A stretch of DNA of 64,000 bases from positions 4,742,979-4,806,978 of the forward strand of contig NC_087383.1 of assembly GCF_963675165.1 (NCBI RefSeq), given 5' to 3'. The notes under the pieces are model-generated. The model ran no database searches. It had not been told where the DNA came from and worked only from the letters and a program-made list of their open reading frames with translations. A program made the translations under genes and the position numbers. This document shows, one piece after another, positions 8,901 to 63,124 of the stretch (positions are counted from its first letter, which is position 1; every line of letters starts with the position of its first letter). Origin of the DNA: Halichondria panicea. Taxonomy: Eukaryota; Porifera; Demospongiae; Suberitida; Halichondriidae.

Positions 8901-11900
8901 TTGTATGCGGATGCTTATAAGTCTACTTTAGAAATTTTAGCTCGTGCAGTGGTAAAGTTGATGAAATTACGTACAGCCATCTGGTTTTCTTTTTGTGCTA
9001 CTGAATGACTTTTATAACTCCATAGGTATTTCAAACCATCAGTCTCAGCGCTAGTAGGGGGCCATCTGACGTATTTGCCCAATTATCGATCAACGGAGTA
9101 CCAAGTTTCTTCATCAATCGTCCAACAACAACACAACTCGATATCCCCGAAGGATCGAGTATATTTTACAATGGAAATAGTTTGGCCATAACTGGTGCCG
9201 ATCCAATTGTGCTGACAGCAAGTAGATTTCAGTATTTGTATCAAGATCCTGGGAGTTTCAGATTTCGAGATGTCACTGGACCAATCCCGGGTGCCGGTGG
9301 ACAACCTGGACCTGGAACTTTGTACTATGATGGAGATACAGCACTTTTTACAAATTCAGATTTATTTATTGGTACTTATGAAGGTCTTGCAGCTCAATTT
9401 CCTGTCCCACCTTCACAAGTGACAATCAGTACTCCACGAGTAAACAATGAACTAGCTCTCAACCTCCAATCCAGTCCTTCTGATCCTGTTACTGATGGAA
9501 ATGTCATTGAGCTCACAGGATCAGATGCGTTCATCCTAGGATCAGGCGAATCATTGACGTATGTATCAAACAGTCTACGATATCGAAGAGGATCTGTAAC
9601 TCAAAGGGTTTTTAATCCTATCACCAATTTTTATGTTCTTGAGGATATCACTGAGAATGGACAGCAAGGCAGAACCCTGAGGCGGTTTACTGGCGGCTCA
9701 AGCGAGGTTATCACAGGGCCTGGAATTCTTAGGGTGGGAACTTCTCCTAATGACGGTTCGAGGGTCGCTTTTTTCAGTCCATCTACTAGTGTCAATCAAG
9801 AAATAAATAGCGGCATTATTGATGGACAGCTTTCGTTTGATGCAGTCCAAAACAGTGCTCAAATCTCGGATATTTTTACAAATCCAGGGACTCCTGCACG
9901 TCTGATCGACTTGGGTGGTACATCAAAAACCTTTACATACCCTACAGCAAGCAGAGTTACCTTTGATGATACCTCTGGTAGAAGAGAGATTCGTGTTTTC
10001 GATAGATTTAACCAACAGCTTGGCGCCTTTTTCGATTCTGACTTGAGTTCCTTCCTCAACCACCAAGTCCAAACAACTAGTTCTGGAACTGCATCTTTTG
10101 ATATTCCTGATGGAGGTGTGACACTTATTAGCAATTCTAATGATGGGCAAATATTTATCTACCCGAGTAGAAATACACTCCTGACTGGTCGCATCAATGA
10201 AGCCCGCAGTTCAATTACTATTCCCCCGAATCCTTCCCCAACTTTCAGTATATCATCAAGTGGTGGCTCTTCCGTCTTGTCAATCAATGGTGATGAAACG
10301 GTCACAATATCAGACAGACCACCAATAATTGTTAACAGTGGACAATCTTGCAACTATAATGGTGCATCTGTTACGGTGTATAATAATGGAGCACCAGGTA
10401 CACCTGTTTCTGGTACCCCTATTACTGTAAATTCCTTGACAACGTTTGTGACACCTGGAAACTGTTTGAATACATTTACCAATACTGCACCCAGAGATTT
10501 ACCTGGACCTGGTGTCGCGTATTCTGACAATCAAAATCGAGCATTTTTCACTAATGAAGTACAAGTGATAAATCGTATCAATGGTTTCCTTAACAGCCGC
10601 CCCCATGTGAGAATTACAACCACTACTCGTACTGAAGGCGGCAGACGCTTTGTTGACATTGTGAATCCAGAAGGTATTCGTCTAGTCGAGGGGAGTACAT
10701 CAACCACTACCAATGTGGGATCACGGCAAGGCCTTATCTACACAGGGAACACCGTCCGTTCTGTCAATGGGTTTTCCGTTCCTTCATCATTTACTATTCG
10801 ATATGTTGTATCTACCACACCTGGTGTTGACGATACAGTTGAAGTTATAAATCCTGATGGAGATGTTTATTTCACCACAACTGCTTCCAGTAGCTTTAGG
10901 TATCGACAAGGAGGAGTGCTTCAACCTACACCTACAACTACTACCTCGTATTCTGGAGGTGGTGTTTTCTACTTCAATCCGAACACCGGTAATGTGGTTT
11001 ACAATGATGATACTACAACTTCAACAGGTTTGGTTACGGATCTGACAACTTCAGGAATTGTTTTCGATACAAACACCAGGAATATCACCACGTTGAATTT
11101 CTTTGATGGTCGTACAACTACACGGTACGATGGAAGCTCTACAAGCTTCTTATCTGGTCCTGGTACAATTTTCACATCCGGTAATGAAGGATTTTACTCC
11201 ACAGACAGCACGACCACCACCAGAGTAGTTACAGAAATAACAAACAATATACCGGTTGTAGTACGTGTGAACCAAACAACAGGAGGAGTAACAATATTTA
11301 ATCCTGGAACACAAACTACGATTTTCAATTTCACCACCGGTTCAGAGCGCACTACTGTAAGCACTGGAACAACGATAACGTACACCAATGGTGTCCTATT
11401 GCTACCCGGCCGCAACATTACAACTGATAGTTTCACCTACTTTAACGGTATTAGCACGCAAGTGTTTACTTCAGGAGATACTGTGACTTTTTCTGGACCA
11501 GGCCAAGTGATAGTTAACGAACAAACCACTGAAACGATTTTCATTGATAACCAAAATACGAACAATCGAATAAACAATGTCGTTAACAATGTTCCTGTGG
11601 TTCCACCAGTTCTAGTACGACCCACAACCACTTCATTCATCTCTAAAGTCGCGGACGTCTTCCCACTCTTTGGACAGGTATAATTATATAAATATGAGAT
11701 TATAGAACGTCTCACATTTATGTTTTTATTATTCAGAGAGTCACGGTGTATCAATCAGCTAATGTGAATCTACGCTGTGTGATTCTTCAAAGTGTTCCAA
11801 CATCATCTTTCATGTTCTTCAGAGATGGAGTTGCATTGGACGGCTCAGAGATAGGTTCTACCATTACCATGGTGAGTAGCCCTGTGTAACTGTATTTATT

Positions 11901-45528: not shown

Positions 45529-48036
45529 ATGGCTACTCTCTCAGTAGAAGTTTTTATTACACTGCTATGCTTTGCTCATGTGAGCATTGCTGTAGATCTG
45601 ACTTTACAGGAAGGTGCCGTTGGTCCTTTTGTTGTTCAAGCTACTATTGCAAAGTTGGATAATGCTTTTCCTAACGGTGACAGTCAATTTTGGGATATTA
45701 CACAGAGCATCTTCATGCGTACCTTGGCATATGTGGAGTCTGAAGATGGTACATTGAGTGCTTCAGGAAATCAGCAACAATCCAGGATGGGGATTTGGAG
45801 AGTTGATATCAATAGGCTTATTTCAACAAAGAACATAATTCAAAGTCTTGACAGAGGAATTATAATCAGGAACGAGATTAATATGAGGGGAATTGCAGAT
45901 TGGGAAAGTATTTTTAATCGTGAAAACATGAATATCCCACTTTATTCTTGCATGGCTGCTCGTTTATTCTTATTGTTCACAAGTGATATTCGAACTTCAA
46001 CTACTGATGAATGCAGCCCTACACTTATTCCAAATTTAGCTTCAAGTGATATTGTTATTGAATCAGCAGCAAGCTATTGGTACTTTTGTTACAGACAGGA
46101 AGATTTTACCATAAGTCAGGATCATTTTGTAACACAGTATGAACAGCTACTCTTGAGGGCTGAGAATGGGATAGGTAAGTAAGTGTAAATTTACTATTAA
46201 GTACTTGTGTTATAATAATAATATACCCACCTATACATTCTTCATTCAGACTGCAATGTGAACACTGACTTAGCCTTTGTGTTGGACTCCTCAGGAAGCA
46301 TTGGCTTTGAGAATTGGGAGCTGGTAAGGCAATACGTTATGAATGTGGTGAATTTAGTCGGTGTTAGTGAAGGAGATAGAGTAGCTATCATCAGATATTC
46401 AACTAACAGTTTTGTGGACATTAGTTTGGATTCCAATCAAAATCTGCTGTTATCGGTGATAGCGAGTATGCAACATCTTGATCGAGGAACAAACACTGCT
46501 GAAGCTTTGCTAGAGCTTCCAGATCAACCATGGCGACAGAATGCCCTACGAATTGCGATTGTGATGACGGATGGGCTCTCTAACGATAAAAATGCTACCC
46601 TACACGCAGTCAAACAAGTACGTCGAGATATCCGAATGCCTTCCTTAATAACTTTTGTTGTTGGAGTTGCCGATTATGATCGCACAGAAGTACTTGCAAT
46701 TGCTTCATCGAACAGTACGGTCAGCGATCTTGACAGTTTCAACACAGAAGATCTAACGGATACTTTGGAACGACAAACTCACCAAATTTGCTACTCAGGT
46801 AAAATCAGGTCATTCACACATACACTAAATTTCTCTAATCCTTATCTGCAGCTTCATCAATGGTTGAGGTGGGTGATAATAACATCCTTAAGTACGGAGA
46901 ATTCTTGCAGTCTACCACTGTTCGACTTACATATCAACTTCCCGAAGGTGATGGCCTAACAATCAGATTGTGTGTCGAGGATGGACAAGCACGCCTTTAT
47001 GGCTCATTCTCGATACCAAATCCGAACAGAGCATTTTATGACTTTGTTTTGGATGCCATTACACATGGGCAAATGTGTGAGGACGTTTATATCGTTGCTC
47101 CTACTGCTGATGTCACTGGTGGTGGCAGAAAGAGACGGCAAGTGGCACCGGTGCGAATGGTATTTGTGGCAATTGAAGGAGTTGCTAACAATAGTACTTT
47201 TTCCCTGGAATCAGATTCTGGAAACACTGTTCAGTGTAAGTATAAATATATTTTTGTTGGTACATATTTTTGTATAAACTATCCAATATTCGTACAGCTC
47301 AGGTCGATGACGTTGAATCTATTGTGGTAGAAAAATTTTGTAGTTTTAATTTTCGTATGATGCTCTTCAATTTTACAAAATATACAAAAATTTCCACCGT
47401 ACGAAAAATAATCCGCTATTATACGGTATCAGTTTATTTGTGTGTCCATGCAGATTCGGTAACATGCGCACAGAATCCGTGTGGTAGAAATACAATCTGT
47501 ACAAATACGACAACAGGCAGGTACTCCTGTGATTGTGTGCCAGGATTCATCTTTGGACCCGATGCTACTAATTGTCAAGGTGAGCTACTTTAATGTTGTG
47601 CAGACAGTTATATCTATACATACATGCAGATATCAATGAGTGTGAGCTCCTGAGTTTGCCCTGTAATCCGTTTGCTTCCTGCTCCAACACGATTGGAAGT
47701 GTTGAATGCACGTGTCTACCTGGGTACTCAGGGAATGGTTTCAAGTGCATCATTGAGCGTAAGTAACTACATGTAATGTAAAGTGATTTTGAATAACACG
47801 ATTGTATTTTTCATGCAGAAAACACTGAGCTGCGACTGATAGTGTCGGTGGTGTCTAGTGTGGCAGGAGGGATTTTATTATTATTGGTAGTGGTAGCTGC
47901 CATCATCAGTATTTACTTGGTACTGGTTACCAACAAAAAGAGTAAAGTCCATAAAAGGGATGATCGTTGTCTCCCAGCAAATCCTAACTCAGGTGATAGT
48001 ACAACAGGCCTATCTTCTGTTGATACCCTTTATTAA
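45529..48036 (+). CDS. Single-pass membrane protein with vWA and two EGF domains
   Basis: Exons 45529-46174, 46250-46798, 46852-47235, 47454-47579, 47630-47758 and 47819-48036 join in phase (2,052 nt, 683 aa). A signal peptide (MATLSVEVFITLLCFAHVSIA) precedes about 190 aa of unrecognised ectodomain. A von Willebrand A domain follows from aa about 216: LAFVLDSSGSIGFENW gives the MIDAS DxSxS, with the partner Thr in DRGTNTAEAL and Asp in IVMTDGLSND, so metal-dependent ligand binding is plausible. A beta-rich region contains RKRR (aa about 490), a furin-type site. Exon 4 encodes an EGF domain (NPCGRNTICTN...YSCDCVPGF) and exon 5 a calcium-binding EGF (DINECELL). The last exon holds a TM helix (IVSVVSSVAGGILLLLVVVA) and a short tail. 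It resembles matrilin/integrin-like adhesion receptors in domain content; no orthologue is assigned. Confidence 0.88.
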
Positions 48037-48636
48037 ATATATATTTAATTATAGCACGTACACTGAACTATAGTGTATTATATAGGTACGTACCTTTAAT
48101 TTTATGTCATTAATTTTTTTGCCTTGCGGTTAAAAATGTTATTACAATCAGGAGTGCTATAAGTAGTGGCTAAAACCCTGCTTTTATACATTGTTCTATA
48201 TACATTGTTCTACATACACATATATTTCTGTACCATAGATAGAACAGTTCTATCCATGGTTCTACGTACTGCATGCTAGCTGCGTATAGCGAGTAATTTT
48301 CGTGGGGGTAAAAATGTTATTCAAATTGTCCGAGTACAAATTAGTGTACTACATAGTCTGCATTGCATGCGTTTCGGTATAACCACGCTTACGTTTTAAT
48401 TTTTTCATGGGTAACATTTCGTTGAGGTCAGCTTTCTCCAAATTTTTGCCCCACGAATTTACTGCTAGATAGTACGTAAAATTGAGCTAATTTGACGATA
48501 ATAAAATTATCAAATAATAATTATTATTAAACAATAAACAAATTACAGAAGGTACAAATTATACAAATTACACACATGGTGTTCTTATCTCATCAGCAAG
48601 TTTAAAAGTTCAGTTTTGTGATTCGGTCCATGCATC
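48037..48636. other. Convergent 3' intergenic region, vWA-EGF gene / adhesion GPCR
   Basis: The two genes face each other with 600 bp between stop codons. It holds AT-rich sequence, a possible diverged MITE (cgtatagcgagtaattttcg near 48284), and no gene. Confidence 0.5.
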
Positions 48637-51600
48637 CTATCGTGGTCCTTCATTTTGCACAGTTCGATAGCATTCATTGGCTGTCATAGCTATGTTTGGA
48701 ATTACCATTGGAGTTTCACCAGCCAATGAAACTTCTTCATATTGTGGGGGGTTACCAATGCCTGGTAATATCTCCTCATATTGTGGTCCTGGGTTCCTTG
48801 CAGCTTGCACAGTATGTAGCTGGTAGGATTTGTTACGTGTCATTGGCAAGCTAGTGGTGGTCCCTCCATTGCCTGGTAATATCTCCTCATATTGTGGTCC
48901 TGGGTCCTTTGCAGAGCCAATAGCTTGCACAGTTGGTTTGCTTTCATTATGTTTCATCCGTGATGGCTCTACATGCGGAATCAGATTTGAAAACATCTCA
49001 GAATCGGTCTTGAACACGGAGTCAGTAGGGCTCTGTACAATGCTACTACCCTCACTCACATATGTTACCGTGGAGCTTTGCCTTTTAGAGAGAAGATCTG
49101 TATTCTGAGTAATGGACGAATGATCACTGAGTGCTATCGATTCATTTCTGCTTCCATTCTTCATGGCAGGTTCGTTACTAAAAGTAATAGAATCTGTGCC
49201 ACTCCCACCTTTAAAACGCAGCGATTTTATTTGCCCTCGTTCGGAAGAAATCGTGTCCCTGGGGAGTTGCTTCCGTAGTCCAGGAACAAATCTGGCCCAA
49301 AACTCACGAAAGTCTTTGTTTCTGACACCGTGTAGAATGAAGATGAGGACTCCTTGGGAACCAACAAATACTCCAAAGATGATTTGAAGTGTGAATGTCA
49401 GCTCAACAACATTTGAGCTTGTAGCCACTAGTCCAAACACCCAGCCCAAACCAAGTACAACAGCAAGGGACAAAGCAATTATGAATTTGACTTTAAATTC
49501 CCGTACGTTTTCAGTTGATGTTTTCTCCTTCTCCTTCAAAACATTCATGTTTCGTTTGTGTCTGCAGATAGAGATCATAATGAGAACAAAGAAGATCCAG
49601 TTGAATACGTAGGCGACCAGAAATGGAAGTATGAACCCGAAGTAGAACGGCCATTCTGTTGGACGGCAACTGCACAAAATGGGGATGCTGTAAACAAACA
49701 AATAGCACAGTGCCATGCATATGGATACATGTCATTGTGCTAGATCTATATACATACAATCGTTGGAGAGCTTTAGAGAGCGAGTACATGCACATGTATT
49801 TAGTTATACTGATCATAGCGGCAGCACATTTTTCTATATTCTCAATCGTAAGAGATTGTCAGTATACTTACTAGTAGCGGCTGGTATAGAACTGATGTCC
49901 TGCTCCCCCACTCACTGCCACAATCAGCACTGGAATAACTGCATGTATTCATTTATAGTGCATGCAAGTCTTTGTTTTGTGTATGGGATATAGCAGTGCA
50001 CCATACAGTGACAGCACGTGTGGCATATAGGCAATGAATAGAGCTAATTTTATACATACATGTACGTAGCATGCCATTTTAAACTTCGACAGAATAGCTA
50101 GGTCCTAGTATATATAAATGGCTGTGGCTGCGCATATAGCACAGTGTCAGCGCAATGGCTTATATAATTATAGTGGTTCCGAAATGTATCCTAAGCTAAA
50201 TTAATGAAACATAATCATAATTTCTCTTACGCCACGCTGGTATAGCTGATTTGAGTGTGTATCTGAATGTGAAAGAATACGACTCCAGCACAGTCACCAA
50301 TTTGAGATAGAGAAAGATAGACTCTGCCATGGTCCACGCAAAAAACACCAGGAAGAAGTATTGCACAAGGGCGGACATAACCCCACACAAGCCAGGGACC
50401 CCAGTGGTGAAGCCAGCAATAAGGAACGTGACATAGAGACCCAACAGTGAAACGCTCATGTGGACCAGAACATGTCCGTGGGTATTCATGCGAAGTTTCC
50501 TGCATGAAGATGATCAGTAAGTACAGCTATTCTAAGAACAAGCTTGTGTTCCTTGAGAGTATTGTCATGCAGTGGAATGCCAATAATAATGATGGTTAGC
50601 TGATTTGACTGTATACAATAAGTCAAGACCCTAGCTAGCTGGCAATATTTTTGCATGCACATTAACTTACTTGCTGAGCAGGTAGGTGAGAAAAAAGACA
50701 ACAAGACATATTATTGACAGTCCCAGACCGACAAATGTGACGACACTCAGAATGACGGACAGGGCCTCTGGTAAAGAGGTTGGATTCAAGTCCTGCGTGT
50801 TAAGAAAATATGTACACACCACGTTAACTTAAAACTAGTATCGACATCTTACGAGTAAAATTCCAAAATGGCCCAAATGGGTGCATTTACACTCAAGAGT
50901 TCCATCCGATCTAGCCACCTCCCTACACCCATCAGTGTTCCAGGCGCCAAAACGATCTATAGTAAAATGTTCGTATAGTATATTGTTTATAATACAGATT
51001 GCTGATTTATACTCAGCAACACTTTTTATGCAATCAACCTACCTTCTGTTTTGTACACTGCACAACTGCTTTTAGCAACTCCATCCTGCATGCATGTATA
51101 ATTATATAGATGCATGTAATACTATATACATTGAGTACAATAAAATACTTAATACAACCATGATTACCGAAACTCGGAATGTCGACCTCACTGGTACAAT
51201 GAGCATTGTTTTGTTAGCTAGCTGGCATCTCAGTCGCACAGCAACTACAATCGAACCGACTTGATTCAAAGTTCTGTTCTCTGGGAGAAACAACACATCA
51301 CTCACAAACACAGAATAACTGAGTCTTTGACTAACAACTGATGATGAGTTAGTACTGCTTTCATTACTAACACAATTCTCAAATATTTCAGGAGTCAGTT
51401 GCAGTGAAGCCGTAGACCCATTTTGAGAAAGCTCAGTATTTGTACCACTGATGTCATTAGCAACACCATCGACTGTGAGTAGTGATTCTTGCTCAATAAC
51501 TCCAGAACTGTTCACAGCTTGTTCCACTGACCCCAAGTTAACAATAAAAGTCTGCCCATTGAAGCTGTCAGGGTCCACTTCTTGCACTTGTAGAGCATAC

Positions 51601-54600
51601 GTGCTGAAAGTGAATGTAGTCAAGTTACCGCTAGAGTTGACAGTGGTGATATCAAGGTTGTCTAAGAATGTTCCCAGACTGTCTAGAATCCTGTGAACAA
51701 GAAAACAAGAGTCGTGTCTGCCCCATTGTATATTCATGTCATTGTGTGCAGTGGAGAAAACCAGAGACACTGTTACATGTAAACAAATCTCGGTCCCCCC
51801 ATAACCAAGGGATAACCTCTCTACAAAGAACAAGCGGAATAATTTTTAATTCCCTATAGTGTACTTGCCTTAGTGTAGTATTCATCGTCACTTGGCTCTC
51901 AACTATTACATCTGCGTCAGCTTGCTGTATGTTGTCAATAGTGAGCAAGTAGTTGTCTCTCACCTGCACATACATGATCACAATACACACATTATACATG
52001 GGGTGTACTAGTACTCATATCACATGCTTTTCTTCTTTGAGAAGCGATATCAATCGCATAAACAGCCATAATTATACAGCTGTTACAAATCCCATAATTA
52101 TACCTCCGGATTTGTTGCTGCTTCTTCTGTCAATTGCTCCACAACTGATGTAGCTAGTGTCACATGACTGGTTGTCAAGTTTTGGGGCGAGGACGTGATA
52201 TTCAATACATCTCTTGATGCTTGAACACTCTGATTAGCTGAAACTTCCTACAAAACAAGCTTGAGAAATAAAACACTGCAACAGAAGATAAAATACATAT
52301 GTAGTTACCGAGGCAATGTCACACAGCTGTCGAGACACTTCAGACAAGGTTGTTTCACAGCTGACATCAAGCCCTTCCCTCCACTCTCCCCCACGAGAAA
52401 ATGTCCCTCCACAAAACCGCTTCACTTCACCTGCAGAGTCACCCAGGATCTCTGCACACGGACAGGCTGCTGTTGCCATAGTACCAAGGTGTGTCTCGGG
52501 CCAGGAATAGCCCATGTACTCTTCAGATGTGCACCCATCTGCACATAATTATGCAGTATTGAGTACTACAGTGTATACAGTCGCAGAGTTCTAATTAAAC
52601 AGCTTATTATACACTGTACATGTAATACCGTATAGCGGGTTATTTTCGAGGCACTAAATTTTTGCGGATTGCCCAAACAAATTATTTTCGAGGATAGCGG
52701 TTCAAATGACCACACCCCTACAGTAGAGAGGTTTCAATACCGGACGTAAACCAATTTTCGAGGCACTAAATGTTTATGTTTCTGGGTCAATCCTCGAAAA
52801 CATCGAAAATTCCGTGCCTCGAAAATAACCAGCTATACGGTAATACGTTAATAAAGAGGAACATCTCTATAACTTTGACCTTATAAGTAGTAATTGTGAG
52901 TGACACTTGAAAAAATGGAATGCAAACATTGGTGGATTAACCAAATTTTTCTATCGGTATTTACACTTACCAACTCTAATGAGATCATCAGCACTGAGAA
53001 TATATTGTGTTTGTCGCAATTCACTAGTTAGGCTCTCTCGTATTCGTGCTACTTGCTCGGAGCCAGGCTGATCTTGTGGAGTCACCAAAGAGACGTAAAC
53101 AGTTGCTTCAAATGAGTTCCCTACGCGAGTGATGTTTGATATGATGACAGAGAAGACGTCACTGTCAGTGTCTGCTAGCTCACTGCTGGCCAACACCAGA
53201 ATGGCCTGTGTAACAATTAATACGTTAGTTAATTGTGCGTTAAATTTTCTTTCAAGGACTCTTATAAAATCAGTGAAGTGATTAACTTACTTCACTGAGA
53301 AGGCTGGTGGAATTTGTTGACAATCTTACTTGAGTAGTGTATTGTAGCACTCCTGCATCAACGTAAAACATACAGTCATGCAGTACTGCAATGTGCATGT
53401 ACATTACTGAATAAAATCACAAGCTCCTCTAATGGACAGTGCTATGCTACAAACTGTTTTTCGAGTGGCTGCTAATTGAGAGTCCCCTTTAATCAGAAGT
53501 TCCGTGAAGTCTACTGACAGTAGTTATTACATGCATACCTACCTGGAACATTAACAGAGGCGGGATTGGAGACATCCTCTCCAACGTCATTGGTAGCCTT
53601 GCACGTGTAGTCTCCTCTGTCCTCAGGGTGTGCCTCTGATATGTATAGGAAAGACATAGTCTCTCCCAATACAAGCTCCCCATCTTTGTACCAACTGTAA
53701 CCAGGGGAAGGGGAGCCTGATGCCGAACAGGTGAGGTTTAGTGATGAAGCAAGGGCCACACTTGTGCTTGACGGATGTGATTCGATTACTGGCAGTGACG
53801 GCGGAAGTTGCGTAAGGTCTACAATCGAAAAAGATAAAGCTCTTTAAACGTATCGTTTGTATTCTTTCAGTACTTCTATTATTGCTCAAAATGACCCACA
53901 GCTGTTTTTTACATTAACTTAGTGCCCTGCATGGGGCTGTAGTTTTACTACCTTGTAGTTGGCAAGTTGTTCCTCTGAAGGTTGTTGGACAGACGCAAGA
54001 ATACCCACCAACTTTGTCCACACAGGTACCTCCATTTTGACAAGGCTGTCCATCAAGACAGTCATCCACACCTTTTAACAAATAAAATAGTCATAATGTC
54101 ACGCATTCATGTACGTACCGCGTATAGATATAATTATTTGGTGTATATTTTGACCCATAGTCAACACAATCATAGTGTAGCTCACTTATGATGCGAAGGT
54201 CCCACATCCCTGTTCCTGGTGACCCTATACCGTTGTCAGCCTCACAGACATACACTCCATTGTCAGCTGCTGTTACCTTGGCAATCTGCAATATGTTCGT
54301 AGCTTGATCATTCTCAATAATGGATATCCTTGGGCCACTTAGAATGCGAGCAGCTTCAGTTAATGATACTTTCACTAACAGCCAAGTGATCTCGGCTCTG
54401 GGATTGGCTCGTATAGAGCACTCAATGGAAATGTTGTCCAGCTCTGATGGAGACTCAGGACCAGTTATCACCACACTAGCGGTAACTGCATGTGGGTAAA
54501 ATAGAGTCATGACAGTTGCAGTCATACATTATATCCTGTATCAAAGTAGATCGAATGAGTACCATGCCGTAGAGCTACATCAGCAACTTAGAACTGTCGA

Positions 54601-57600
54601 AAACAGCAAAAAGACCCTTAAAATTAAAGATTGATGTGCATGAGCATTTCAGTGTTTTAACTGACAATTAGTCTATATTAATTATGCATAAAATAATCGT
54701 CAAATGCTACAATTAACCAGGTATAGGTGGTGGGGTTACAGTTGTTCCGACTGCAGGAAATTATGCATGTATTAACTTCAATTTTCTCATCCATACCTTG
54801 AGGGGTGTCTGTTGTTGGCTCTGTTGTACATGTGGTGATGACGTCAGAACAACAGCTACGAAACAGCTGGCAGTTTGTAGAGCAGGAGCATGTAGGGGGG
54901 TTCCCCATACAGGAGCCAGTGACACAGCACTCTGTGATACCAGCCGCAGCACATGTACCTATGGCAACAAGAGAGCAGGTATATATGCATATATGCACTA
55001 TTGAGCAAATGCTACAACAAACCAAGTGTAGGTAGCGGCGTTACAGTTGTTCCGACTGCAGGATTAAATGTCAAGCACATAATTATATGCCAGGCCAAGA
55101 GAATCATACTTACTTGTAAGACAAGTATGTCCATCAATGCTAAGCACGCACATCTCAGAGGTAGAACAGCCACCATTGTTATCAGCACAGGGATTACTAA
55201 CTGCATGTTTGAAGCAAAAAATTGCCATTAATTTATTAACACAGCCATTAATTATCGTTGGAAGTTGATTTTGCACCCATTAGTACCAGCTGTACCTAGT
55301 GGCTGCCTTGCATTGCTAATTACTTGAATGCTGTCTGCTAAGGTGCAGCCGACATTACTAAGAAGCCTTGGGTTTGAATCTGTTCTTGCTGCATATACAC
55401 CCACAAAGAACCCAACGAAATACAGAGTGTCCAAGTGAATAGTAAACGACATTGGATCACGAGCAGGCAAGCTGCTCTCACTGTAAGCCACACCCCTCGA
55501 CAGTCCATCGAACGTGGCACTCTCGATTCTGTTTAGCTGGGTGTCAGCCCAGACAACTTCTAGGCTGTTGTCAATTGTTAGTGAAGAGGGGAGACTAATA
55601 TTCATTGCTTGAAAAGTCACCCTGTTGCTGCCGTCCATTGAGGCCTTCTCAATCCTGGGGGTACTTCCCGAAACAGAGATATACATCTCCCTATAAATTA
55701 AGTATTTCATCAGCATAATTATATATTATCTGTCAGTTATGACTTCATGTGTTTTCACCACACTGTACACACATGTCACATGATTATTATACCTGTTGCC
55801 TGGATGGAGTGCAATATCTGTCACTGTCCCGTCAACAGTAAGTACGGTTGCATGACTTCCAGATGTCAAATCAAATATATTGATGGTGGAGTCTGTGCCA
55901 TTGACCCAATACAGCTTGTTTGTGACCCAATCAACCGCTATGTCAGCTGTGTAAAGATCAGAAAAGTTAATTACCAACAGACAACACAACGGGTAGCAAC
56001 AGATACTGCCCAGTGGGGGATTTAGGGGGGGATCCCAATGCAATGGAACCCTAGCTAGTTGATCGTTCGCAGCTCTACGGCTGGTGCTAGAGATGGGACT
56101 TTCCTTGACCATAAGTGGGTGTAACCCAACAAGTTCACACTGCACGGCAGCTTTCACTTTTCGCGCTCATACTCTTTGAACTCCCTTTCCTATTTCCTGG
56201 ATCCGCCACTGCTACCATGGTTTGAAAAAGGGAATTTTGCCTCTGTCATAGTCATGCACTGTAAAAATAAAGTGTGCTGAGCACACTAGGCCGCCAGGTA
56301 TTACAAATTTTAGTTAGCTCAGCACAATAAATTTTTTACAGTGTGGGCCCAAATATAATTATCTAGAGAGAAGGATTTTGATATGGCTTTCCCACAGCCA
56401 TATTTAAGCTGCATGCAGCTTAAATATGGTGGGTTAGTCAGCTCCTAGCTATAATTCTAGCCTCCTTCGCAGCCTCTCCTTTTTCTGTTCTTTGTCACTG
56501 TAGTTCAATAAGATAAAATACGGGACGAATTGGAGGAACAAAGAAAGAAAGAAGGAAGAGACTAAGAAAAAGGAGAGCCTGCCTTGCTAAGTCGCGTGAC
56601 GGTAGACGAGTGGTAGACGAGTGAAAATGAACGTGGGCAATCACTAGCTGGGCGGAGCCTGACAGAGCAAAAAGCTACAGCATGCCTACGCATTGCAAAC
56701 TCTAAATAAAAGCTGTTAGCATCGTAGATAGTAAGCCAGAATCAAGCGTGGAGACATCGTAGACAAGGGCTTACCTAGTAAAGTCTAAAGAGACTAAATA
56801 TCTAAATTTAGCTCAGTTTTTTTTCCTGAGTTCAGAACAGACCCACTTGATTACATTATTATTATTATTATACATTGATTACTTATTACAGCAGTATAGT
56901 CTACTCTACTCTAGTCTTTCATACTTCCTCTACTGACTAAAGGTCTTACGAAGGCTGACTCTACTGCACTGTACTGTACTGTTCATAACAGATTATGTTC
57001 CTGGTAAATGCGCTCCAAGTACTGTGTGGGAGGACAGTTATTGAGGTTTTCTCTCGCCCACGCTCGTTAAAATTTGTCTACGTCAGTAGGGGATCACGCG
57101 ACTTAGCAAGGCAGGCTCTCCTTTTTCTTAGTTGCTTCCTTCTTTCTTTCCAATTTTCTCTTCTGTGACAAAGAACAGAAAAAGGAGAGACTGCGAAGGA
57201 GGCTACTATAATTCTGCTTTTTAACCAGTTAAACAGAGCAATGCGTGCTTGCACTGTGCCTAACACTCACTGGCTGGTGAGGACCCTGTGTCCATTATCT
57301 TCACTGCTCCAGAGCCATCAAAGTTTGATCTCCACACTTCCATTTTGGTCACGTCACTCCAGTAAAGGTACCCATCCCTGCAAACACATAATTATGTCTA
57401 GATACATAATAGCAGCCAATAACCTTCACGATACGTATTTATGGTAGCATAATGCTCACGATACGTATTTATTTATGCTACCATAACGAGTGTTGCAAGC
57501 TGCGCTGGTGCTAATGCCTCTCATGTTTTGCTTTCACTCAAGAGTGTATATAGAAGAGATAATTAGTTTGCTTTGTATAATGCAATTATCGTTGACACTG

Positions 57601-60600
57601 AAACACACTGTCATTATAGAAGAGGAGCTTAATTAATGGAAACAGAAGTCTATACTGTATAGCCGGTAATTTTCAGGGGGACAAAACATTCTTGGTTCAG
57701 CAATATTTAGTCACTTCGTGGATAATATTTTCGTGGTTGCTGCTTGCACTGCAGGTAAAGGTAGGCAAGGTCGCTTCATTCGTGGGTAAAATATTCGTGG
57801 TCTGAGCTCCAACCACGAATATTTTGTCCCCCGGAAATTACCAGCTATACAGATCTGATGGCTTGATGAACGGACTTCAAGGATAGAAGCCAGAATATAT
57901 CTATACTATATATACGATGTAGAGGTTTATTGCGTATTTCCAAGAATTAAAACAAGGAGTGGATCTCCTATGAGGTCAGAGTTCACAAGGGCCGCTGGTA
58001 GTGTGAGTAGGTACATGCATGCAGATTGCAGAGCTCTTTGCAGCAAACAGCTATAGCGCTTTAGTGCAAGACTAACTTATAAGTTGGATAGAAAGTTTAT
58101 GCGAACAGATGATGCTTCTGAGGAAACTGCAACAGCCTTCACTGTGAGTCAAACTAGCCGTAACTTGAGATAGAAGCTTTAGTTTGCAAATTCACGAATC
58201 AAAATCCAAGAGAACGTGGCTAGAAGCCTATAGAAGCTGTTAGTTTTCGTCGCATTGCAACCGTTGAGCAGTTACAGCTAGAACACACACACACACAGAG
58301 TCAGTTTTACCATATCCTTTGTGAGATAAATACGCATCGTGAAGGTTATTGGCTGCTATTATCTTGATAGCCATACGTATACAAAGTTATGAGATGATGC
58401 ATTCTACTATCTGAAATGTACCTATAATGAAAATCAATGTCAGCTGCTCTCGACAAGCCAGACACGATTATTCTGGTTCTAACTTGAGTGTCTGTTGCAT
58501 TGACTGGCAGAGTCATCAGATGAATAAACGGCTCACTAGCGTATACCAAGTACGGGGTAGATCCTGTACGAGTAAACATTCAAGGTAGATGAAAACACAA
58601 ATGGCACACCTTAAGGGATTAAAATGATTGAACTCGATTGTTCGAAGTCAGATATCTCATCAATTACATATAGGATACGATGTAGTTGGGCGTGGCCCGG
58701 CATCCGTTCTGACGGGTGCCCGGGGGACACACTTATATAGGATTTGTACCCTCAGTGCAGCCCAATCAGATTGCAGAGATAACGATATTCATGACTCAAA
58801 TATCGATATTCATAACCAGATATGCAGTTTATAATTTTATTCATGATGCTTACACAGCAGTATTGCATAACACAGCAGTACAAATCCTATGTAAGCATGT
58901 CCCCCGGCCACCCGTCAGAACGGGTGCCGGGCTGCTACGCCCAGCTAGATACGATAGTAGATACAGTGCTTTACCTGCACTGATGCAGTCTGTGGGTACA
59001 TCCTGACAGCAATCACCAAACACGTGACAATTAGCGTCACAGTAACAAGAGAGGGGAGACCCCCCGCAGTCACCACCCACACAGCATGTAGAATGACCAG
59101 CTGCCATACAGGTGCCTACAGTAGGAGGCGAAACTAATTGCCTACCATATAATTATAGATAATTATGCTGACTTTTTTCAGTAAGATATATTTAAGATCT
59201 ATTACATACCCATGGTCAGTACGCTTACAATTATATGTGTTTGTAAGGTATGACTTTACCTAGTTCAGAAGAGCTGTAGTCTGTTACATTTCCTGCATGT
59301 CAAAGAACACATTAGATAATGGAAATCAATTTTGAAACTGCGCATGCGCAAACCACACCCACTCAGCTTGAAGTGAGTGTGGTACGCAAGTGTGCAGCTA
59401 TTGATCTCACCTGACAGGAAACAGTTTTGCTGGTTTGCTGCGAGGGAGTATCCGTCACGGCAACTGCAGGAGTAGCCCCGGGGGTCAATGGAGCTTAACA
59501 GGCAGAGTTGTGAGCAGCTGCTACCAGAGCATGTGTTGGTCACTAGGGAAAAACAGAAACACATAATACATGTCACATCGTCATGCAAATGAGAATTGAA
59601 CAACGAACGTACAGTTCACATACAATGTTGTTACAATGTTGTTACATAATAATATTATTGTTGAAAGTGATACACGAGGCTTCTAGAAGCTTGATAACAC
59701 TTTCTCAAAAATACTACCTCTAACAGCTATGGTTTTAGCACTCACGGTCACTTTGCCTGCTGTCACTCACAGCAACTAAACCGTATGGAACAGTGCAGGT
59801 GCCGTCAAACACAGTAGTCAAGGCACTGCCACTCATTGGTATACTCTGCAATCTGTTACCGTTCCAGTCAGTGAAAAACAAGATATCATTGATGAACGTA
59901 ATGCCAAAGGTATGAGATAGACCAGTAGCTTGATTGGCTAGAGTTATCCGGTTGCTGCCATCCACATTGGAGGACTGTAGCACATCCTCTGAAGCATCCA
60001 CCCAGTAAAGCACTTGTCTAGAGTAGTCCAACGTAATACCATTGGGCCACACCAGGCCAGTGTTGTGGAGCACTGTTCGATTCCTGCCATCCATAGAAGC
60101 TCTCTCAATCTTGGCTGGATTACCCCAGTCTGTCCAGTACACCCAGCTACAAAATACTCCGTTTATTATCCAATCAAGAAACAAATGAATGACGCTGAGC
60201 TAAGTACTTGAGACTTGTGGTAACCTAAGATGTTATGTTACCACAATATGGACTAAGAACTGTCTTATAGAACTAGATAGCTTCTGATTTATTGTAAACA
60301 GTAACTGTCACCCTCTGTGTTAGGGTTATTTTAGTTGCATATTCTTATTTAGTAGTGTTCTAGAAAATTCTCCTGTGGTTTTGTTGTTTTTGTATAAATG
60401 GCCTGTGTGTATTTTGTGCATCAGAGACTCAGAGTTCTTAATAATATTTCTAAGACATCACAAGACCCAACAGTTATTACAAACAGTTTTATTTATTATA
60501 CCGACAGTTATAATTATTACCAAACAGTTATTATTACCGACAGTTATATTACCAACAATATCCTACCACCTGATGAAGCTCGCAAACTACACTGAGCTAG

Positions 60601-63124
60601 CTATACAAGGTAATTGAGACCAACAGTTATTACTGATGAAGCTCTTACCGTGTAGAAGGATCCACTACTATTGCTCTTGGTTCAGTGGCGTTGGAATCTC
60701 CAAGCGTTGAAATGAGCACTTTGAAGAGGTTTGATTCCAAGTCAAACACCCCCACAATATCCAATACAGTGTCAGTGAAGTAGAGCTTGTTTGTAACCCA
60801 GTCCACTGAAAGTCCATCTAAATATGAAAGCCACACGTAAATTTAACAGTTCATGAACTAAAAACGTTCTGCAACCAATGCAGTGCAATATTCCAAGGTA
60901 TAATAACCATACTTATCACTACAATGTGTTTTGCGAGTGAAAAACCTTTGCGAATGAGCCAAATCAAAAAGAATTTTGACTTGTTACCTAACTTTTGCAA
61001 TCTGGTAAGAATAGCGTCAACAAGTACCGCATAGATTTTGCGATTCTTTTTTTGCGAAGCCATTAGCACTCGCACAAAAGTGCATAATAGTGTCTATTAT
61101 TGTTCTATTTAGAAATGAAACAACCACTCAAGAAGGATATCTGGCTACTTACGAACCTGGCTCCATGAGACCCTCCTCAATCACCGTGGAAACACCGCTC
61201 CCATCTAGGTTAGCTCTCATGATTTTTCCAGCCATGTTGTCAGTCCAGTACAAGAATCTCTGCCTGCATAATAAAAATGTTATTGCAGCTTGCATTGCCT
61301 CTCATATCACAAGCCTCTCATAATTATCACATAGCCTCTCATACTGCCAGTCTGCTTATAATAATTATATTAGTGACCTGTAATGATAGTCAATGTCCAG
61401 AATGTTGTCGTTGGATTGGTCGACCAGTACGGGTGTTTGTACTTGATTACCATCCAAGCTGATCTTATGGAGATAATCACCATTGGCCATGAGCAGGTAT
61501 GCTGAAGGGTCATCTGACGTCACTTTAAACAGGGGCACAAAGTAATGTTATAAATGTACAGCAAGCATGCCATATATGGAGTACCTCGTTTCCTCCGTAT
61601 ATGATTGTTAGACATAATATTATTATGCTGAGATATCATCTGCAGACAATATCTATTAATACAACAGTAACTGTTATTAAAGACACTCTTCTTACGGTAG
61701 ATGCCAGGCTGACCATCTGTGTGCCCTCATAGACTGCCATATTATCATCCACAAGGAGGTACCTACGTATATTATACACATTTCAATCTGGATGTCACAG
61801 CAAATTGACATAAACAACACCTTAATGAGACAGTGGTTGATTTAGAAACAAAGTCCACAGCAATAAAAGGTTTGGGAGCTGAAATCAATTGAATTACAGT
61901 ATCCTGCAGCAAAATTTCATTTTTATACTGTGAATTTCATACACCCGGTAGCTACAACGTACATCCAAATTAATGCAAGATACAATCTTCCATGATTCTT
62001 TTCCAGTGGAGGTAAACTTGTTAGTCTCATGGTCCGCATGGCTGCACACTTGCAGTACAAATGCAACAACTTGAGCCTCAGGGTCATTCCCGGACACCTC
62101 GACTACAATCAGATAAGAGCAAATAATTTGCCTTGTGCAACCAGATTGCAGGCATTGATGTCAAGTAAACTGAGATAGAAAGGTATAGACAGTATAGTCT
62201 CGAATACCCGCCTCAACCTAAAAGCTTGAGTCTGGTCAAACTCACATTGTGGTTTGGTTCAAGTGTGTCCAGGAATTTCTTGGACATTTAATTGACCGCA
62301 AGTGGGTGTGGAACATGAATAAAATTATAGTCTACATGAATATCATTATAGCTAACCGCCACGGCAGCATGGATTGCTACTAGTAGACAGAATTAGCCCC
62401 TGACAGAAGGCGACGTAGGAAAATTCATGGAGAGAGTTGTAAGGATATGATACTAGAACTCTCCAGACTAGCAATAGGACCTTTGGAACACCTTGTCGAA
62501 TCTATTAACAGCCTAAATGCTCATTTATGTGAATGTGACCGTCGACCATGGTTTCAAGGCCCTCTAGCTCTGTGCAATGATGGCTTCAAGCTCAGTGTTT
62601 TTCTCGTAGGCTTTCAACTCCTAGCCTTAATTGATACACTGTCTGATTGTTCTGTCCCTAACATGCGGTGGCTTGTGGCTTTATCACTATGCTTGTGGGC
62701 GTGTAGCCCACTTGACTTTGCTGACTGTGCAGAACAAAGTTCATATGTGAGTTGGACCAGACTCAAGCTTTTAGGTTGAGGCGGGTATTCGAGACTATAG
62801 ACAGTAACCCCAAACAAGGCTAAAGAACTCATTTTAATAATTATTATGATTCTAGAGAATTCTAGATCTAGCTAAACATTCGATTCACTCACCATGATAT
62901 TTGTGACTTCCAACAGGAGAGCTACGACGTAGTGACACACTAAAAGGGTTATGAACTTTCTTATGACTCTTTCTGAAGGATACCATATCAGCTATTAGAC
63001 TGTCCCTGCACAAAACAATGTCCTCAGCCAGGCAGCTAGAACCAGGAACACTTGCTGTCAATCCTACAAATGCTGGGGACAATGCCAGCAGCAACATCAA
63101 CCACATCATTGTAGCAGCTATCAT
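48637..63124 (-). CDS. Chimeric adhesion GPCR with LDLR-type propellers, SMB, Ig, EGF, HRM and GAIN domains
   Basis: Thirty-five phase-consistent exons (6,468 nt, 2,155 aa), minus strand: 63124-62893, 62102-61929, 61878-61821, 61762-61696, 61639-61585, 61522-61378, 61263-61157, 60817-60649, 60146-59746, 59542-59411, 59292-59260, 59115-58975, 58563-58422, 57377-57271, 55946-55793, 55690-55296, 55200-55114, 55055-55023, 54958-54797, 54750-54718, 54485-54186, 54071-53952, 53818-53543, 53352-53291, 53205-52971, 52538-52309, 52247-52104, 51963-51869, 51690-51168, 51085-51043, 50956-50853, 50792-50671, 50499-50231, 49938-49872, 49687-48637. Order by residue: signal peptide (MIAATMMWLMLLLALSPAFVG); propeller 1 (about 195-469, FLYWTDNMAGKI, WVYWTDWGNP); EGF (470-513); linker; somatomedin-B (524-571); propeller 2 (571-837, YLYWSDVTK); EGF; linker-SMB-linker (866-942); Ig, EGF, Ig (942-1174); SEA-like (1174-1273); HRM (1273-1350); GAIN/GPS (to 1653, ECKCTHLGHFG); 7TM; tail with three QYEE motifs. 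The first five exons are the weakest. Confidence 0.87.
52626..52842. mobile_element. MITE with taccgtatagc termini
   Basis: taccgtatagcgggttattt at the left and aataaccagctatacggta at the right are inverted, with gaggcactaaat blocks inside. It is related to 18973-19195. It lies in the intron before the HRM exon of the adhesion GPCR. Confidence 0.85.
54718..55055 (-). repeat. Exon-level duplication: 33-bp linker exons flanking the second somatomedin-B exon
   Basis: The exons at 55055-55023 and 54750-54718 are each 33 bp, phase 1-1, and nearly identical (both start tcggaacaactgtaac and encode GTTVTP followed by P/L-rich residues). Their acceptors (cctgcag) match as well. They bracket the SMB exon 54958-54797, giving a symmetrical, shuffle-ready cassette. 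Confidence 0.85.
56230..56344. mobile_element. Small MITE (gcactgtaaaaataaagtgt ends)
   Basis: cactgtaaaaataaagtgtg with ctgagca is mirrored by gctcagcacaataaattttttacagtg about 60 bp later. It lies in the intron between the second-propeller exons of the adhesion GPCR. Confidence 0.75.
56398..56429. repeat. Perfect 32-bp palindrome
   Basis: ccatatttaagctgca joins its own reverse complement, tgcagcttaaatatgg, with no spacer. It lies about 30 bp from the left end of the adjacent M3 transposon. Confidence 0.95.
56458..57205. mobile_element. TAGCCTC hairpin transposon (Mutator-like), copy M3
   Basis: It runs from tagcctccttcgcagcctct to agactgcgaaggaggcta, 748 bp, flanked by the perfect 9-bp duplication ctataattc (56449-56457 and 57206-57214). 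Terminal arms of tctcctttttctgttctttg type fold on themselves, as in M1/M2, and gcgtgggc/gcccacgc pairs recur inside. It is a diverged subfamily in an intron of the adhesion GPCR. Confidence 0.85.
57490..58335 (+). mobile_element. Repeat family X, long copy
   Basis: The left part (gctaatgcctctcatgtttt) and the right part (ctttagtgcaagactaactt, gtgagtcaaactagccgtaa, atcaaaatccaagagaacgt) match 7873-8706. The copy is itself interrupted by a MITE at 57653-57853. Confidence 0.65.
57653..57853. mobile_element. MITE with tactgtatagccggtaattt ends
   Basis: tactgtatagccggtaattt and aaattaccagctatacaga are inverted and enclose gggacaaaa/ttttgtccc. It is a diverged relative of the taccgtatagc elements, nested in repeat X. 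Confidence 0.75.
58686..58944. mobile_element. GC-rich-ended MITE
   Basis: The left end ttgggcgtggcccggcatcc with gttctgacgggtgcc is mirrored by ggcacccgtt-type sequence and a right end ggctgctacgcccagc. Inner arms ataggatttgta and tacaaatcctat also match. It lies 30 bp from the first SMB exon of the adhesion GPCR. Confidence 0.8.
62193..62799. mobile_element. Transposon with roughly 60-bp inverted termini
   Basis: The left arm starts tatagtctcgaatacccgcc and contains tcaacctaaaagcttgagtc; the right arm ends ggcgggtattcgagactata. A 5-bp gacag flanks both sides (62188-62192, 62800-62804). An open frame of 110 codons inside has no recognisable domain. It lies in intron 1 of the adhesion GPCR. 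Confidence 0.8.

Follow-up and report, generated by a model that had tools for sequence, protein, structure and literature searches.

Organization of the locus

The window, a 64,000-nucleotide stretch of Halichondria panicea DNA within contig C7 of the assembly, contains on its minus strand, between positions 63124 and 48637, a gene model of 35 exons whose reading frame runs through without a stop. In this we reproduce the structure proposed in a preliminary description of the sequence; the 2,155-amino-acid product given there is obtained by using an alternative donor at 55287, which lengthens exon 16 by 9 nt, whereas our model encodes 2,152 residues. The introns are bounded by GT-AG in 33 of 34 cases and by GC-AG in the other, after exon 28. 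The features are, in order of transcription:

62893-63124, minus strand: exon 1, start codon and hydrophobic, signal-peptide-like N-terminus (best 10-residue hydrophobicity 2.56)
61585-62102, minus strand: exons 2-5, N-terminal region ending in RRKR (no Pfam family)
59746-61522, minus strand: exons 6-9, YWTD propeller 1 (Pfam, PDB sequence matches)
59411-59542, minus strand: exon 10, EGF after propeller 1 (under Pfam cut-off)
59260-59292, minus strand: exon 11, 33-nt linker exon (C5 relatives have 30-33 nt linkers at the equivalent place)
58975-59115, minus strand: exon 12, somatomedin-B (SMB)-like domain 1 (under Pfam cut-off)
55296-58563, minus strand: exons 13-16, YWTD propeller 2, divergent (Pfam on isolated piece, tree)
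55114-55200, minus strand: exon 17, EGF after propeller 2 (under Pfam cut-off)
55023-55055, minus strand: exon 18, 33-nt linker exon with weak donor (1.6; hand-set model)
54797-54958, minus strand: exon 19, SMB-like domain 2 (under Pfam cut-off)
54718-54750, minus strand: exon 20, 33-nt linker exon with weak donor (1.9), skipping possible (hand-set model)
54486-54796, minus strand: joint of the two halves, 311 bp, containing exon 20 (scanned for TM segments and poly(A) hexamers)
54186-54485, minus strand: exon 21, Ig domain (Pfam)
53952-54071, minus strand: exon 22, EGF (Pfam)
53543-53818, minus strand: exon 23, Ig domain (Pfam)
52971-53352, minus strand: exons 24-25, segment without domain match (collinear with the C9 gene in a longer alignment)
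52309-52538, minus strand: exon 26, HRM (HormR; slightly under Pfam cut-off)
51043-52247, minus strand: exons 27-30, GAIN domain, GC-AG intron after exon 28 (PDB sequence match, Pfam)
50853-50956, minus strand: exon 31, GPS, CKCTHLGHFGILL, without Ser/Thr nucleophile (Pfam, model translation)
49872-50792, minus strand: exons 32-34, first part of the 7TM (Pfam, PDB sequence match)
48637-49687, minus strand: exon 35, remaining 7TM and 217-residue tail (model translation, motif scan)

Exon borders were set by hand on the minus strand and joined by script, and so are not an independent prediction; automatic exon chaining, both in a first run and in penalty-tuned runs, inserted spurious short exons or missed short ones. 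Splice sites and phase agreement within the model thus hold by construction, phase agreement being in any case weak evidence because phase-1 exons join freely, and the independent evidence is homology. Judged by comparison of sequences, the anatomy of the model is more than chance would give, because each half is matched elsewhere in the genome by homologues of equal exon phases and similar exon lengths.

All but one of the six longest introns contain inverted-repeat insertions, MITE-like in appearance, at 56451-57212 and 57388-58380 (introns 14 and 13), 58695-58932 (intron 12), 62193-62799 (intron 1) and 52622-52846 (intron 25). A convergent neighbour is predicted on the plus strand at 45529-48036, with an N-terminal domain absent from Pfam, a VWA domain, two EGFs, one TM and a short tail; by eye, its N-terminal domain and VWA resemble the ectodomains of two of the GPCR loci on contig C5 described below (L010 and L013). 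Also on the plus strand, an open frame of 885 codons rich in Thr, Ser and Gly (9026-11683), of which the first 349 residues gave no NCBIfam match, is followed, to about 16.9 kb, by exons that by eye are Ig-like and thrombospondin-1-like.

Domains of the predicted protein

Pfam was run on the two halves of the protein and then on isolated pieces. YWTD propellers are known from LRPs and nidogen, and the two described at this locus were confirmed: Ldl_recept_b matched at 4.8e-36, over the Pfam cut-off, as did propeller 2 alone at 3.3e-8, its strong divergence being apparent from a tree branch of 2.47. The Ig-EGF-Ig array (Ig_3 in two stretches, 7.6e-29), the GAIN/GPS region (GPS at 3.3e-9 in the half and 1.9e-9 in the isolated piece, with an ADGRG6 alignment spanning GPS to 7TM) and the seven-TM adhesion GPCR (7tm_2, 5.8e-21, 75.3 bits against a cut-off of 20.6) also held; GAIN subdomain A alone scored 0.0045, under its cut-off. 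In searches of the PDB by sequence, LRP2, LRP4 and LRP6 ranked first for the propellers and ADGRG6, ADGRG2 and ADGRL3 for GAIN-7TM.

For other domains the support was partial. The EGF between the Ig domains passed the Pfam cut-off at 6.6e-6, but those on the propeller side fell under it (FXa_inhibition, 1.7e-5, 25.3 bits against 33.4). HRM was matched in the isolated piece at 4.1e-5 but, at 24.3 bits, under the cut-off of 26.2. Both SMB-like exons were likewise under cut-off (0.034 and 0.0038), but the label is likely to be right, since an SMB exon of a propeller gene on contig C5 (C5:3283649) passes. The description of exons 24-25 as a SEA-like segment found no backing: no Pfam family matched at E up to 10, and the segment alone showed no pairwise match to its counterpart in a gene on contig C9, with which it is collinear only within a longer alignment running from Ig to HRM. 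Nor were LDL-A repeats present, PF00057 being absent from both halves at E up to 0.1. Given one gene, the receptor has a large multidomain extracellular N-terminus, of which the Ig-EGF-Ig part stays even if there are two.

Relatives of the GPCR half

We searched the genome (131 Mb in 39 contigs) for relatives of each half. Eleven loci on C5 (L009-L019, 4.27-7.26 Mb) matched GAIN and 7TM, and all but L016 also HRM. Exon lengths of 43/104/122/269/67 recur exactly in at least L011, L018 and L019, and 144/95 in at least L010 and L019; GAIN exon 29 is single in the C7 gene as against two exons in the C5 predictions. The exon lists of the C5 and C9 paralogues and of the propeller gene ends come from a rough exon finder, so that they contain errors and some merged neighbours, as in L016, which takes in collagen-like and other exons.

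The ectodomains differ among the eight of these loci in which they could be read. By Pfam, L009 has Calx-beta and sushi, and L010 VWA and sushi; by eye, in the rough predictions, L013 has VWA, L015 and L019 have sushi-like arrays, and L014, L017 and L018 contain Calx-beta-like repeats. The C9 gene (L029+L020) encodes Ig domains and one LDL-A, then Ig-EGF-Ig, the segment mentioned above, HRM, GPS and 7TM, and is collinear with the C7 gene from Ig to HRM (408 aa, 31%, E 1e-46). Because the C5 and C9 relatives carry such different ectodomains, the GAIN-7TM part behaves, as far as these predictions indicate, as an exchangeable cassette, which is consistent with class 1-1 exon shuffling (treated in part of PMC8001218) and with a proposal of domain shuffling among adhesion GPCRs (in part of PMC12716839).

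A tree of the GPCR part had long branches and gave the C7 gene no firm place. Two of the C5 loci, L011 and L012, are nearly identical and lie about 370 kb apart, probably the outcome of a recent duplication. The bacterial and archaeal contigs scanned yielded no relatives, as expected.

Relatives of the propeller half

Matches to the propellers lay mainly on C5 (3.26-3.39 Mb), C6, C11 and C13. The C5 unit consists of four propeller exons with phases 1-2-1-2-1, an EGF, usually a linker exon of 30-33 nt, and SMB; the C7 modules carry the same propeller phases, followed likewise by EGF, linker and SMB. Exon lengths are 145/107/169/401 in module 1, 142/107/154/395 in module 2 and 127/110/160/395 in two of the C5 genes; another C5 gene has more introns in its propeller unit, and one also has NIDO and FN3. 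The three C5 propeller genes that were traced to the C-terminus end, in rough predictions, in a single TM and a tail. In two single-pass C5 propeller genes the predicted tails have PPxY-acidic motifs, PPRYHDI and PPLYDDV, resembling PPQYEEV in the tail of the C7 GPCR.

On C6 there are three propeller-EGF units, of which just the third is followed by a 51-nt linker and SMB, and on C13, at 1.14 Mb, four propeller-EGF units and a TM in a gene that we call LRP-like. The propeller-EGF-linker-SMB unit of the C7 gene is one that it has in common with the single-pass genes of this genome rather than with the LRP-like gene, from which a propeller tree separates the C7 modules weakly (68/92, the bootstrap not being settled).

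No second locus joining propeller and 7tm_2 was found among the 7tm_2 matches listed (150 of 227 candidates scored) on comparison with 57 LDL-B matches, except that two LDL-B matches under threshold (E about 1) lie 10-12 kb from 7tm_2 matches on C5, on the opposite strand; another split gene of this kind could be missed in such a comparison, since the C7 gene's own 7tm_2 exons are absent among the matches listed.

The joint between the two halves

That propeller genes without 7TM and GAIN-7TM genes without propellers both exist in this genome raises the question of whether the C7 locus is two tandem genes, one encoding a propeller-EGF-SMB protein that ends near exon 17 or 19, the other an adhesion GPCR that starts at 54525 or 55107, in the latter case beginning with the SMB 2 domain. 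The propeller half here, however, has no equivalent of the TM and tail in which the three traced C5 propeller genes end: the 311-bp joint contains no TM segment in any of three frames. It also contains neither AATAAA nor ATTAAA. The variant hexamers AATACA and AATATA are present in the joint; the 3' side of the gene itself has ATTAAA (at 48400), AATATA and TATAAA, and no AATAAA either. Intron 17 measures 58 bp and the joint 311 bp, which leaves little space for a 3' end and a promoter.

Possible starts give the two-gene reading something to work with. Ig exon 21 can be entered in frame from ATGs at 54525 and 54510, and a further in-frame ATG at 55107 (hydrophobicity 2.32) continues across linker exon 18 in the direction of SMB 2 and the Ig exons. 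An in-frame ATG nevertheless precedes the exon at 13 of the 34 introns, and that at 54525 (1.81) is less hydrophobic than four of the 12 others; we rejected it as a special start, being no better than those ahead of ordinary internal exons. The start at 55107 is matched by ATGs before undoubted internal GAIN and 7TM exons (2.54 before exon 28, 2.24 before exon 35), and a further hydrophobic start within the gene, at 51206, reaches 3.41. Within the 311 bp only one candidate first exon runs from an ATG to a donor, with a weak start (1.42) and a weak donor (0.9). The most hydrophobic start near the joint, 55206 (2.88, above the 2.56 of exon 1), runs through EGF exon 17 out of frame with the model and might be spliced onward; in control stretches of 2,815 bp a start of at least 2.88 occurred at 11 of 33 other acceptors, the stretches overlapping so that these represent three distinct starts, 55206 included. 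Finally, the predicted C9 relative has further Ig and LDL-A exons ahead of its equivalent Ig exon. We therefore regard two tandem genes as unlikely.

The frame past exon 19, which stays open for 39 codons, could serve as the end of a separate propeller gene, and equally of a soluble propeller ectodomain made from a single gene, by read-through, or through early polyadenylation downstream of exon 17 or 19, alongside the full receptor; a short receptor could similarly arise from an internal promoter, through the starts at 55107 or 55206, and the weak donors of linker exons 18 and 20 would also favour several products. But long read-through occurs at other introns as well (48 codons past exon 10 and 43 past exon 28), and the lack of AATAAA and ATTAAA in the gap tells against early polyadenylation, leaving several products rather unlikely, if somewhat less so than two genes. 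Misassembly of two loci side by side we consider very improbable: the model does rest on one assembly, but the window is situated millions of bases inside contig C7, and the joint measures only 311 bp.

Since the joint has no TM, no AATAAA or ATTAAA and no start better than those of ordinary introns, there is a strong likelihood that a single transcript spans the propeller and GPCR exons. A 58-bp stretch that includes the 33-nt linker exon flanks the SMB 2 exon on both sides (54701-54758 and 55006-55063, 88% identity), and this duplication of the exon 18 and exon 20 regions could be a mark left when the two halves were joined.

The GPS motif and the cytoplasmic tail

The canonical motif for GPS autoproteolysis is H-X-S/T (given in part of PMC13062082). 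The GPS of the C7 gene reads HLG, with Gly as third residue. Because this leaves it without a Ser or Thr nucleophile, self-cleavage should fail, and very probably the C7 receptor does not cleave itself at the GPS. A pattern scan of 29 loci matched 16, five with HLT (L005-L008 and L020) and 11 with QLG (L009-L019); L001-L004 gave no match to the pattern. Loss of the nucleophile is thus common to the C7 gene and the 11 C5 loci, which also lack the His, and L009-L019 would form an expanded group in which self-cleavage should be absent. Cleavage is common among adhesion GPCRs but not required, human ADGRB2 and ADGRB3 having been observed uncleaved (according to parts of PMC13062082 and of a 2026 adhesion GPCR review). 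The tethered agonist of the C7 receptor, GHFGILL, retains hydrophobic residues in its core, for comparison with a consensus of TxFAVLM (in part of PMC12716839).

The 217-residue tail contains YEEI twice, YEEV once (as PPQYEEV) and a single PPxY; no NPxY or acidic dileucine motif was found in it. The YEE[I/V] and PPxY motifs may be SH2 and WW sites, respectively. YEEI and YEEV also fit the YxxPhi sorting motif.

It is on this last point, and on the ranking of LRP2, LRP4 and LRP6 as best PDB matches of the propellers, that one could base the suggestion, made in the preliminary description, of a receptor coupling lipoprotein-receptor-like uptake or Wnt/LRP-type recognition to a G protein. The sequence did not sustain ligand uptake: LDL-A repeats, NPxY and acidic dileucine are all missing. 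Moreover, this genome carries an LRP-like gene of its own apart from the C7 locus, built of four propeller-EGF units, and the linker-SMB unit belongs to the single-pass genes. We consider the endocytic or Wnt/LRP-type reading quite improbable.

Discussion

Taken together, the C7 locus is probably one exon-shuffled adhesion GPCR gene with a propeller ectodomain. The earlier remark that no described family with this order was known stands, in that none was found among the titles and opening parts of abstracts listed in searches of the open-licence PMC literature; a search by terms in part of a 2026 adhesion GPCR review was also negative. The order of the ectodomain would accordingly be new within the literature searched, its parts being known ones from an exon-shuffled adhesion GPCR.

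With the adhesion GPCRs of class B2 (ADGRG6, ADGRG2, ADGRL3) the C7 gene has GAIN-GPS-7TM in common, and an HRM preceding GAIN has been described in this class (in part of PMC12716839); unlike these receptors it adds YWTD propellers, SMB and a tail with three YEE[I/V] motifs, and has no GPS nucleophile. Among sponges, the adhesion GPCRs of Amphimedon queenslandica have HRM, Ig, EGF, fn3 and SRCR domains, with GPS in 28 of 40 and HRM in at least eight (PMC4302439); neither LDL-B nor SMB appears in the legend to Figure 4 of that paper, and its main text has no match for LDL or somatomedin. The C7 gene has HRM, Ig and EGF in common with them. From the LDLR/LRP family (LRP2, LRP4, LRP6), with which it has propeller-EGF units in common, the C7 gene differs in having SMB and 7TM and no LDL-A repeats, single TM or NPxY. 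It agrees with the C5 propeller-EGF-linker-SMB genes in exon phases and linker exon and has exons of similar length, but these genes have a single TM and tail (in the three traced), in one case NIDO and FN3, and no GPCR part, where the C7 gene has 7TM. The C9 adhesion GPCR has the same Ig-EGF-Ig-segment-HRM, GPS and 7TM, but with further Ig domains and one LDL-A upstream, no propeller, and HLT at its GPS.

As a starting form we propose an HRM-GAIN-7TM receptor with an Ig-EGF-Ig stalk, the order that the C9 gene also has, which would have acquired two propeller-EGF-linker-SMB modules of single-pass-receptor type through phase-1 introns; the direction of exchange that we infer is a gain of propeller modules by the GPCR. 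As to how such a receptor might work, we can only speculate that propellers, SMB and Ig domains bind a partner in the matrix or on a cell surface, that load or a change of shape passes on to GAIN, and that the tethered agonist GHFGILL is thereby brought to act on the 7TM bundle and a G protein. The ectodomain should remain covalently attached, since the GPS has no Ser/Thr nucleophile, and signalling would consequently proceed by flexing or partial exposure rather than by shedding. The three YEE[I/V] tyrosines and one PPxY of the tail may, again speculatively, recruit SH2 or WW proteins.

A broader and more tentative possibility is that the C7 gene and the 11 C5 loci make up a lineage of permanently uncleaved adhesion GPCRs, with the GAIN-7TM cassette serving as a signalling end onto which different ectodomains can be plugged; the C7 member would be a tandem propeller sensor with a tyrosine-docking tail, feeding G-protein and tyrosine-kinase pathways without shedding. 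If there is one transcript, a YWTD propeller is here joined to a G-protein receptor, and ectodomains would have been exchanged within one genome, GAIN-7TM being joined through phase-1 introns to Calx-beta, VWA, sushi, Ig and propeller domains. The HLT, HLG and QLG states of the GPS would provide a natural series bearing on whether signalling by adhesion GPCRs needs cleavage and shedding.
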